Shown: piece after piece, positions 31,605 to 34,169 of the stretch
How positions within the stretch are numbered: the first letter of the stretch is position 1
How the letters are laid out: every line of letters begins with the position of its first letter
From: a virus
Reading direction: 5' to 3' (one strand)
DNA length: 60,868 nucleotides
IMG/VR virus record: IMGVR_UViG_3300037584_005633
Coordinates: 1 to 60,868 of that record
Made by a program: the position numbers and the translations under genes
The notes under the pieces: model-generated
Seen by the model: only the letters and a program-made list of their open reading frames with translations
Told to the model about the DNA's origin: nothing
The model's database searches: none

Positions 31605-33174
31605 GATCTTTGGTCCACCCGGTACAGGTAAGACTTGGACTCTTATTGAAAGAGTAGTAAAGCGACATTTAAAAAATGGTGTAGATCCAGAGAAGATAGC
31701 CTTCATATCATTTACAAATAAAGCAGTTGATACCGCAAAGATAAGAGCTCTGGAAGCTTTTCCACATCTTGATTCTAAATCGTTTAGTAGATTTAGAACT
31801 TTACATTCTTACTGCAGAAGATATTTTGAAGAAGAAATATTTGATACCAAAGATTGTATGATTGATTATGCACTTACAAATAATTTTGTAAAACGATCAG
31901 ACAATAGACTATCTCAAGATAACTTTACATATTCTGATTGGTCACTTGGTATTTATGATAAGGCTAGAAATTTGTTAGAAGATCCTGTGCTTGTTTTTAA
32001 AAGAGAAGCACAGAAGAAAGAATCACTTGATGTTTATGTTAGAAAGATAAGCACGTATGAGCATTATAAAACTTCAGGAGGGGAAAGATCTTTTCTAGAT
32101 TTTACTGACATGATTGAAAGAGCTTTACATGAAGTAGAATTTCCTGAGCTAGATGTTTTGATACTTGATGAGGCACAAGACTTTACACCGCTGCAATGGT
32201 CATTGATTTATAAAATGTCAGATAGAGTAAAAAGAATTTATCTTGCAGGTGACGATGACCAGGCCATATATCAATGGAATGGTGCTGATACAAAATACTT
32301 TACTAAATACTTTCCTGGTAGGAAAGTTGTATTACGTAAGACAAGAAGATTTGGAACTGCAATACATCAATTTTCACAAATAGTTAGAAAAGGTATTCTC
32401 GATAGTGTTGATAAGGAATTTGAACCACTTATAAAAGAAGGTCTTGTAAAAAGATATTTGAGTTTCAAGGAGATACCTTTTGAGAAGGATGAAGGTAAAT
32501 GGTTTTTATTAGGTAGGATACACACAACAGTCAATGAGCTCAAAGCACTAGCCAAAGATGCAGGAATCTATTTTGCAGATAATAAAGGTCAAAAATCTTT
32601 TGATCAAAACCAATGGTTAGCAATTAAAGCTTGGACTGCTATATCAAATGGCAGAGAGATAATGAAAAAAGAAGCTGAGGTTATGTATAAATTTATAAGA
32701 CAAGTTACAGATTCTGATTACAGGACACCAAAGTTTTGGAGTAATGAACCAGATTATAAGAGATACAATTTTACTGCATTGAAAGAATGGTGTGGTTTAG
32801 ACTTGCCTGATGAATCACAAAAGAAAGCATGGTGGTGGATCTTACGTAGAAACTTTAAACCAAGACAAGTAATTTATTTTTTAAGATTGTTAAAGAGATA
32901 CAAGCAAAGTAAGTTAGATGGAGCACCCAATGTAATTATAGATACAATACACTCTGTGAAAGGTGATGAAGCGAATCATGTATTGTTATATTCAAAAGCC
33001 AATTGGCCTTCTAGTTTTAGACATAAAAACAAAGATGAGAAATCAAATGAAAAGAAAGTTTGGTATACAGGTGTTACAAGAGCAAGAGATAGTTTGCATT
33101 TACTTAGTACAGATTACAAGTATAACTATCCTATTGGTCAAGATTACTTAGTTTATGTACAGGGAGAGAAATGA
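31540..33174 (+). CDS. UvrD/PcrA-like SF1A helicase
   Basis: 544 residues. Walker A GPPGTGKT (25-32), FTNKAVDTAKIRA (Ia), LDEAQDFTP (II), GDDDQAIYQWNGAD (III), TRRFG (IV), DTIHSVKGDEANHVLL (V) and WYTGVTRARDSLHLL (VI) are all present, so the 3'-5' helicase should be active. The first 65 bases overlap the primase end. Likely the replicative or recombination helicase of this phage. Confidence 0.93.
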   Translation: MMSTTTNLGLQKQKQIYRKTIKIFGPPGTGKTWTLIERVVKRHLKNGVDPEKIAFISFTNKAVDTAKIRALEAFPHLDSKSFSRFRTLHSYCRRYFEEEIFDTKDCMIDYALTNNFVKRSDNRLSQDNFTYSDWSLGIYDKARNLLEDPVLVFKREAQKKESLDVYVRKISTYEHYKTSGGERSFLDFTDMIERALHEVEFPELDVLILDEAQDFTPLQWSLIYKMSDRVKRIYLAGDDDQAIYQWNGADTKYFTKYFPGRKVVLRKTRRFGTAIHQFSQIVRKGILDSVDKEFEPLIKEGLVKRYLSFKEIPFEKDEGKWFLLGRIHTTVNELKALAKDAGIYFADNKGQKSFDQNQWLAIKAWTAISNGREIMKKEAEVMYKFIRQVTDSDYRTPKFWSNEPDYKRYNFTALKEWCGLDLPDESQKKAWWWILRRNFKPRQVIYFLRLLKRYKQSKLDGAPNVIIDTIHSVKGDEANHVLLYSKANWPSSFRHKNKDEKSNEKKVWYTGVTRARDSLHLLSTDYKYNYPIGQDYLVYVQGEK

Positions 33175-34169
33175 ACCATTTAGATTTATTTAGTGGCATT
33201 GGTGGTTTCAGCTTAGCCTTAGAAAAAGTTGGTTTTAAAACTATAGCTTTTTGTGAAAACGATCCTTATTGTAGATTGTTGCTGCAAAAGCATTGGAAAG
33301 GAGTTACAATACATAATGATATTAAAAAATTGGAAGCGAAGGACATTAAAGAACCAATTGACATCCTCACAGGTGGCTTTCCTTGCCAACCGTACAGTGT
33401 TGCAGGCAAGCAAAAAGGGACTGATGACAACAGATATCTCTGGCCAGATATGTTTAGAGTCATTAAAGAAGTCAAACCCACCTTCATTATTGCAGAAAAT
33501 GTGCGAGGAATTATTAACATCCAAGACGGCATGGTATTCGAAACAGTGTGCTCTGACTTGGAAGCTGAAGGTTTCGAAATCCAGACGTTTGTTATTCCAG
33601 CTGCAGGCGTCAACGCTCCACACAAAAGAGAAAGAGTCTGGATTGTGGGCTACTCCAAACACAATGGATCACTTGCCTCCAAGATCAAAAGAAGGAACAA
33701 TAAAATTGATGACAGGACAGCGGAAGGGCAGAACACGTCCATCGAACCTGAGAGAACAAGTGGATCCAGAGACAATGAGATTGTGGAGAACTCCAGACGC
33801 GAACTGCATGAGAGGTCCAGCATCCGAGAAAAGAATGAAGATGAAATTGGAAAAGAGAATGCCAATCAGTTTGAACGATCAAGTAGCAAATCCACATCTG
33901 ATGTGGCCAACACCAAGGGCGAACAAAGTGACACCAATAATTACAGACAAGAATCGGGAGAAGTTAGCGAACAGGAACAAATCGAATCTAGAAGAGGTCG
34001 TAGCTGGACATTGCGGGAGGCAAGTTGGAGCTCTGAACCCAATGTGGGTAGAGTGGCTAATGGGATACCCGGCAGGGCATACAGACTTAGAGGATTGGGA
34101 AACGCTGTCGTCCCAAAAATCCCTGAAGAAATAGGAAAGGCAATATGGAAAGTACTGAACCAAAATTAA
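33171..34169 (+). CDS. DNA (cytosine-5) methyltransferase
   Basis: 332 residues. Motif I DLFSGIGGFSLALEKVGF, IV GGFPCQPYS with catalytic C72, VI ENV (109-111), VIII KRERVWIV (about 152-159), and C-terminal IX/X EPNVGRVANG to LGNAVVP (310-315). The stretch between VIII and IX (about 163-285) is hydrophilic and low-complexity, unlike a normal target-recognition domain, and coincides with strong coding in the +1 frame (see 33253-34134). Start overlaps the helicase stop. It may protect phage DNA from restriction. Confidence 0.9.
   Translation: MNHLDLFSGIGGFSLALEKVGFKTIAFCENDPYCRLLLQKHWKGVTIHNDIKKLEAKDIKEPIDILTGGFPCQPYSVAGKQKGTDDNRYLWPDMFRVIKEVKPTFIIAENVRGIINIQDGMVFETVCSDLEAEGFEIQTFVIPAAGVNAPHKRERVWIVGYSKHNGSLASKIKRRNNKIDDRTAEGQNTSIEPERTSGSRDNEIVENSRRELHERSSIREKNEDEIGKENANQFERSSSKSTSDVANTKGEQSDTNNYRQESGEVSEQEQIESRRGRSWTLREASWSSEPNVGRVANGIPGRAYRLRGLGNAVVPKIPEEIGKAIWKVLNQN
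33253..34134 (+). CDS. Overprinted +1-frame ORF inside the methyltransferase gene
   Basis: 293 codons without a stop, fully inside the methyltransferase gene. From residue about 98 the sequence looks conserved in style: CALTWKLKVSKSRRLLFQL, then three W-x-T-P units (SGLWATPNTMDH, MRLWRTPDANC, LMWPTPRAN) and LNPMWVEWLMGYPAGHTDLE. I recall very similar blocks in proteins annotated as phage methyltransferase partners. The start is unclear (first possible is GTG 33253). It could be a separate protein or be reached by frameshifting. Confidence 0.55.
   Translation: MKTILIVDCCCKSIGKELQYIMILKNWKRRTLKNQLTSSQVAFLANRTVLQASKKGLMTTDISGQICLESLKKSNPPSLLQKMCEELLTSKTAWYSKQCALTWKLKVSKSRRLLFQLQASTLHTKEKESGLWATPNTMDHLPPRSKEGTIKLMTGQRKGRTRPSNLREQVDPETMRLWRTPDANCMRGPASEKRMKMKLEKRMPISLNDQVANPHLMWPTPRANKVTPIITDKNREKLANRNKSNLEEVVAGHCGRQVGALNPMWVEWLMGYPAGHTDLEDWETLSSQKSLKK

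Follow-up and report, generated by a model that had tools for sequence, protein, structure and literature searches.

A single stretch of phage DNA (33171-34169) encodes two proteins, a cytosine-5 DNA methyltransferase in frame 0, which we call alpha, and a second protein in the +1 frame, which we call beta. The window, i.e. the whole stretch of 60,868 nucleotides that was analysed, belongs to a tailed phage, as it carries terminase, portal, DNA polymerase and primase genes, and alpha is flanked by a helicase gene on one side and a PAPS-reductase-like gene on the other. From the sequence comparisons described below, beta appears to be a genuine second gene inside the alpha gene, most likely occupying 33424-34134 and encoding 236 aa (Table 1). 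Very probably, alpha and beta together make up a single cytosine-5 DNA methyltransferase in split form, which would methylate the phage genome at one target sequence for each cassette. The data show the overprinting, the frame-specific selection, the gene anatomy, the shuffling of cassettes and the homology with the recognition region found in single-chain enzymes; the translation start, the heterodimer, one target for each cassette and an anti-restriction role are inferred.

Table 1. Features of the nested alpha and beta genes in the window.
Feature	Position	Strand	Basis or remark
Alpha, cytosine-5 DNA methyltransferase catalytic subunit, 332 aa	33171..34169	+	PF00145 1.5e-57; TIGR00675 1.2e-50
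Alpha motifs I-VIII (PCQ catalytic loop, ENV, motif VIII HKRERV)	33171..33665	+	profile vs M.HhaI residues 13-171
AAGGGA, Shine-Dalgarno-like site for ATG 33424	33415..33420	+	
Beta, putative overprinted +1-frame target-recognition subunit, 236 aa	33424..34134	+	probable start; alternative ATG 33499
Beta N-terminal domain, TSGQ..CLES..LLTSKTAW..CALTWK...RLLFQL	33424..33645	+	double-coded with alpha motifs IV-VIII
Beta cassette 1, type T0, WATPNTMDHLPPRS...LREQVDPETMRL	33646..33783	+	T0 in 105/205 cassette-bearing betas
Alpha read-through linker, residues 171-312, predicted disordered	33681..34106	+	pLDDT <50; substitution pattern
Beta cassette 2, type T1, WRTPDANCMRGPASEKRMKMKLEKRMPISLNDQVANPHLM	33784..33903	+	T1 in 90 loci
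Beta cassette 3, type T4, WPTPRANKVTPIITDKNREKLANRNKSNLEEVVAGH...	33904..34032	+	T4 in 20 loci
Beta motif IX-like LNPMWVEWLMGYPAGHTDLE	34033..34092	+	double-coded with alpha residues up to motif X
Alpha motif X core GNAVVP	34098..34115	+	invariant G310, N311, P315 (alignment A4)

Open frames, frame-specific selection and the probable start of beta

The initial annotation described a 293-codon +1 frame (33253-34134) over the methyltransferase gene; the open reading frame and the peptides quoted from it are present, and its coexistence with alpha lies far beyond chance. When beta was held fixed and its codons were resampled from the phage's own usage, 12.4 frame-0 stops were expected over 33661-34016, yet none is observed, and not one of 20,000 simulated sequences lacked stops. 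Conversely, with alpha fixed, 5.9 stops were expected in the +1 frame over 33424-33660 and none is observed (p = 0.0003). Among 123 distinct loci, retrieved with either window protein, the phase is +1 without exception, and on complete contigs neither frame is interrupted. Forty-one distinct loci were fetched by the alpha protein only; both frames are open in 35 of the 35 that are complete, and in the other six at least one frame runs off the contig end. An intact frame 0 over a closed +1 frame, the outcome that the initial annotation had set against its own reading, was found in none of the relatives retrieved with the alpha protein.

Across the middle region of all loci, the alpha frame is open in 194 of 202 and the third sense frame in none, and the antisense frames are open in just 4-8, which led us to reject an antisense gene. 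In the main class (181 loci), 23,633 cassette codons contain no alpha-frame stop and the third frame has 1,750; since this class is itself defined by the openness of alpha, it is the unconditioned count over 202 loci that matters. Five AquI-like loci, in which alpha ends after motif VIII, have 40 alpha-frame stops in 589 cassette codons.

Selection was followed as parsimony changes per site at the first, second and third frame-0 codon positions on a tree of 53 sequences. Before 33424 these are 2.16/1.07/5.98, followed by 1.68/0.88/3.24 at 33424-33498 and 1.86/0.45/2.18 at 33499-33645; in the cassettes (33646-34017) they become 6.35/2.70/1.72, and at 34018-34134 they are 2.46/1.41/2.59. First positions are therefore the fastest and third positions the slowest in the middle region (788 vs 213 changes). 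Pairwise comparison with 52 relatives gives frame-0 third-position differences of 0.38 before 33290, 0.10-0.18 at 33411-33650 and 0.01-0.11 at 33651-33890, where frame-0 first positions, which are the third positions of the +1 frame, differ by 0.23-0.44. These regional patterns point to selection on frame 0 alone at first, on both frames at motifs IV-VIII and at IX/X, and on beta alone in the cassettes. The two measures agree with the earlier proposal that frame 0 is selected at the ends and +1 in the middle. Double coding, which had been placed at 33520-33660 and 34020-34130, does fall in about those places; the limits have moved, and by the substitution patterns it covers about 33424-33645 and 34018-34134. 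Purifying selection in both frames, together with the constant phase, identifies an overprinted same-strand gene pair.

The gene is probably shorter than the reading frame that had been taken for it, the first 57 codons (33253-33423) probably being non-coding. Before 33424, substitutions follow the pattern of alpha only, and this pattern shifts at about 33426, just after ATG 33424; about 30% of the complete relatives have a +1 frame that stays closed as far as alpha nucleotide 154, or farther. The more likely start of beta in this phage is ATG 33424 and the alternative is ATG 33499, which is made by the ENV codons and is found in most relatives; GTG 33253 is probably not the start. The codon equivalent to 33424 is ATG or GTG in 57 of 102 relatives and ACG in 25, with a Shine-Dalgarno-like motif of the AGGA/AAGG type upstream in 93. 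One universal start is not supported, since the start codon varies among these 102 relatives. The third codon positions of CAAAAAGG(G/A)AC (33410-33420 in the window, and equivalents) are conserved even where the beta start is ACG, and this stretch may have a role beyond Shine-Dalgarno pairing.

A catalytic chain, its probable partner and the cassette array

Motifs I, IV (PCQ), VI (ENV), VIII and X of C5 methyltransferases all lie in alpha. AF2 models alpha confidently at residues 1-170 and about 313-330 and leaves 171-312 disordered; the initial annotation had noted a low-complexity middle where a target-recognition domain should be. In a Foldseek search, the folded part matches M.HaeIII and M.HhaI at 1e-14. 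Since it is the folded part that matches these enzymes, and the alignment with M.HhaI covers residues 13-171 only, alpha comprises motifs I-VIII and X. No recognition domain was found in the alpha chain, whose residues 171-312 are disordered in the AF2 model and unconserved in frame 0; the protein sequence of this linker is not conserved, yet its frame stays free of stops. Nor was motif IX found in the alpha frame, a motif IX-like peptide being present only in the +1 frame. Alpha's motif X lies 3' of it and overlaps the beta tail.

The C-terminal peptide of beta, LNPxWVEWLMGYPxGxTDL, corresponds in position and form to motif IX, and L204, P206, V209, E210, M213 and G214 are invariant (alignment A3). 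The N-terminal 75 residues of beta are present in split forms of the enzyme and missing from fused forms, two of which (L269 and L274) match the beta profile only from position 117 onwards; this distribution suggests a domain that docks onto alpha. The +1 reading frame product matches PHROG 1008 ('DNA methyltransferase') at 2.5e-28 and gave no domain match in a Pfam search, and a profile search of the PDB with beta gave no match up to E = 10. The AF2 model of beta alone has a pLDDT of 50, too poor for a fold search.

Between these two parts lie the cassettes, numbering one to seven and usually two to four in each of 205 betas. Their median length is 40 aa, they start with [W/L/Y/F]xTP and end near L..xV, and they cluster into 41 types that have three or more members each and are arranged in many orders. 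The window carries the array T0-T1-T4, and close relatives carry T0-T1 or T0-T1-T5. The cassettes resemble one another more closely than do the cores in which they sit, as for T1 (95% vs 53% for alpha), and pairs with alpha identity below 55% can share cassettes at 83-95%. The cassettes thus appear to be exchangeable units that are gained, lost and swapped between phages, and their position points to a role in DNA recognition. Tandem exchangeable units of about 40 aa are those of multispecific phage C5 methyltransferases, and the shuffling of the arrays suggests that methylation is likewise multispecific; by analogy with SPbeta-type enzymes, each cassette would recognise one target sequence.

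With an xTP start and an L..xV end common to all of them, the cassettes could instead be structural repeats, or copies of one recognition domain, that confer one specificity and vary neutrally in number. This alternative, which bears on the multispecific part of our reading only, seems unlikely to us, given that different recurrent types occur inside one beta and recur across distant phages in different combinations, which is the pattern expected for distinct specificities. On balance, we lean towards a library of interchangeable cassettes in the second frame of a catalytic gene, each with one specificity; alpha would be reduced there to a stop-free linker whose length depends on the number of cassettes, and the beta docking domain, absent from single-chain enzymes, would have arisen by overprinting on motifs IV-VIII, the whole forming a large class in phages and prophages.

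Nested, fused and AquI-like relatives

The nested arrangement of the window was found in 193 distinct loci. Two loci with one frame (L269, L274) carry [W/L]PTP cassettes and a LNP..WxxxMG-type motif between motifs VIII and X, as does mycobacteriophage Babsiella gp54, also in one chain; a scan with the fused L274 protein gave no match but L274 itself. In a third arrangement (L207, L241, L267, L270, L271 and mycobacteriophage Bumblebee11, 75/74), alpha stops after motif VIII and a +1 beta holds the cassettes, IX and X. Because cassettes, motif IX and motif X are fused in the alpha frame of rare relatives, beta is best read as the missing target-recognition part, which bears out the earlier suggestion that the +1 product supplies target recognition. 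Beta was met only alongside alpha. More distant cytosine methyltransferases without beta exist, and the three that were read have an ordinary in-frame recognition region.

Beta has no solved homologue, no Pfam domain and a poor model, all of which would suit a separate overprinted protein that is not a recognition subunit, e.g. a regulator, a decoy or an unrelated anti-restriction protein. We consider such a role improbable, as the fused enzymes place cassettes and IX exactly between VIII and X in the alpha frame, alpha has no other recognition domain and beta is found only with alpha. Slightly less probable still is programmed +1 frameshifting, by which ribosomes translating alpha would shift into the cassette/IX frame and make one contiguous enzyme, with no separate beta. 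It would accommodate the conserved CAAAAAGG stretch where beta constraint begins, the motif X in the beta frame of AquI-like relatives, and two loci (L264 and L176) with the N-terminal motifs of alpha in frame with beta. A useful shift must, however, follow motif VIII (about 33665), and beta constraint begins 160-240 nt earlier; moreover, in the main class motif X is in the alpha frame past beta IX, with alpha stop-free through the cassettes, such that two opposite shifts would be required. Constraint on beta upstream of VIII and an open alpha frame with its own motif X lead us to reject frameshifting as the main reading, and of the two products first envisaged, an accessory protein or a frameshift product, a separate protein fits much better. 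That the +1 frame is open merely as a by-product of the hydrophilic, low-complexity alpha linker has a negligible chance of being right, given the codon resampling, the reversed substitution pattern, a third frame that is never open and at least 587 homologues.

In the split enzyme that we propose, alpha would provide the catalytic domain, with SAM binding, PCQ, ENV, motif VIII, a long disordered linker and motif X. Beta, made in the +1 frame by separate internal initiation, would be a small DNA-reading domain composed of the docking region, the array of ~40-aa cassettes and motif IX. Together, the two would form the active enzyme, methylate the phage genome at one target for each cassette and thereby protect it from host restriction. 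Every cassette gained, lost or swapped between phages would be open in both frames because alpha must be translated through to motif X.

A tblastn search with the +1 protein matched 65 annotated phage records, of which 54 are Paenibacillus phages; the others include Lacticaseibacillus, Escherichia phage N15, Microbacterium and a marine contig. In IMG/VR, at least 587 stretches with +1-frame homologues were found by a pattern scan. The tblastn check that had been proposed thus returned homologues at the protein level, in line with PHROG 1008, with the IMG/VR stretches and with the similar +1 peptides that the initial annotation had placed in phage proteins. Several Paenibacillus phage records have both frames annotated as methyltransferase, and the six E. 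coli prophage loci that were read (L281-L286) all have an unannotated +1 beta. Enterobacterial plasmid-prophages also encode relatives. A genome scan gave 320 relatives, the best 80 of which are from Bacillota, Bacteroidota, Synergistota, Treponema, Pseudomonadota and others, and pairs with cassette arrays occur in phages, prophages and bacterial MAGs.

Individual relatives depart from these arrangements. In four bacterial loci, three of them from Synergistaceae (L220, L222, L230 and L236), short in-frame insertions carrying stops (TAACTACAG, TGACTG, TGATGA and TAACTG) lie exactly at GGFPCQ of alpha, and both frames are kept downstream. Alpha would be truncated at PCQ, and the insertions may represent a homing scar, a bypass element or decay; selenocysteine at these stops was rejected, as the insertions are short and their stops differ. 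In another Synergistaceae locus (L176), an insertion resembling an HNH endonuclease lies immediately before the PCQ motif, around 1143-2774, and an out-of-frame scar at PCQ adjoins the insertion site of the other four. In Babsiella (L329, 1825-2329, partly annotated as gp55), LPTP-like cassettes are found also in the +1 frame of the fused methyltransferase, possibly a remnant of, or an intermediate between, the nested and fused forms. The beta frame extends about 390-510 nt past the alpha stop in L053, L054, L059 and L060; in the first two, the extra C-terminal stretch (FYRTPTAMDKGDNSFKYAAK...) looks as if a separate domain had been fused. Lastly, alpha of mycobacteriophage Seabastian (genes 75/76, L335) is two overlapping open reading frames near ENV, with beta +1 to the second, which could reflect an enzyme in three pieces, a site of frameshifting or decay.

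Significance and comparison with known systems

Most overprinted genes are short, confined to narrow taxonomic groups and of uncertain function. In the present case, a long overlap is conserved across phages of several bacterial phyla and a molecular role can be proposed for it, while the fused, AquI-like and nested arrangements serve as natural controls through which the origin of overlapping genes and the constraint on them can be measured directly. Our findings also suggest that many prophage annotations of 'DNA cytosine methyltransferase' lack the subunit that decides specificity, so that gene calls and methylome-to-gene assignments would be incomplete. If cassettes map one-to-one to sites, they would offer a naturally occurring set of interchangeable methylation specificities, as well as a record of the restriction systems that phages must evade.

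The beta chain of EcoHK31I is reportedly made from another reading frame of the alpha gene (Lee, Kam and Shaw, in 1995), and beta of the window likewise lies in an alternative frame within its alpha gene. M.EcoHK31I and M.AquI are natural two-chain C5 enzymes, the former with motifs I-VIII and X in alpha and motif IX in beta (PMC3404938). By description, M.EcoHK31I (YGGCCR) divides its motifs as the window does, and from its anatomy the window pair appears to be an M.EcoHK31I-like nested two-subunit enzyme, presumably a heterodimer. Neither this precedent nor the exchangeability of the cassettes figured in the initial annotation. The recognition domain of EcoHK31I has been placed in alpha (PMC3404938), whereas here the cassettes are in beta and alpha is disordered at that place. 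Cassette arrays are not described for EcoHK31I, whereas the window beta has one. EcoHK31I is also part of a restriction-modification system, whereas the loci whose neighbours were read are in phages, prophages and plasmids and have no adjacent restriction gene. We considered whether the N15-like E. coli matches are M.EcoHK31I itself; those examined are prophage genes.

M.AquI (CYCGRG) also consists of two polypeptides, with motifs I-VIII in alpha, and the relatives whose alpha stops after VIII, Bumblebee11 included, show the same division. Motif X on the beta chain, as in M.AquI, is thus a trait of few relatives, whereas the window and most relatives keep motif X in alpha, and their beta is nested, not downstream. 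As a two-chain C5 enzyme with a nested beta, the pair is of a kind already known. The multispecific C5 enzymes of the Bacillus phages SPR, phi3T, SPbeta and H2 are similar in being phage-borne, with tandem exchangeable units of ~40 aa between VIII and IX. They are single-chain enzymes, whereas the array of the window consists of xTP cassettes and is carried by a second, overprinted protein, the likeness being one of arrangement. Tandem units of multispecific Bacillus phage methyltransferases are mentioned in PMC8936443.

The same overlapping pair exists, as database annotation only, in PHROG 1008 and the 'DNA cytosine methyltransferase (x2)' of Paenibacillus larvae phages, and in Escherichia phage N15 gene 58, where beta is unannotated. 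The literature searched, with subscription papers mostly outside it and its silence therefore weak evidence, held no account of overprinted or overlapping phage C5 methyltransferases, nor a description of their prevalence in phages, prophages and MAGs, of recognition units borne by beta or of an overprinted, shuffled cassette array. Compared with these systems, what appears to be new is the placing of the recognition units in beta and their organisation as a shuffled cassette array overprinted on the catalytic gene.
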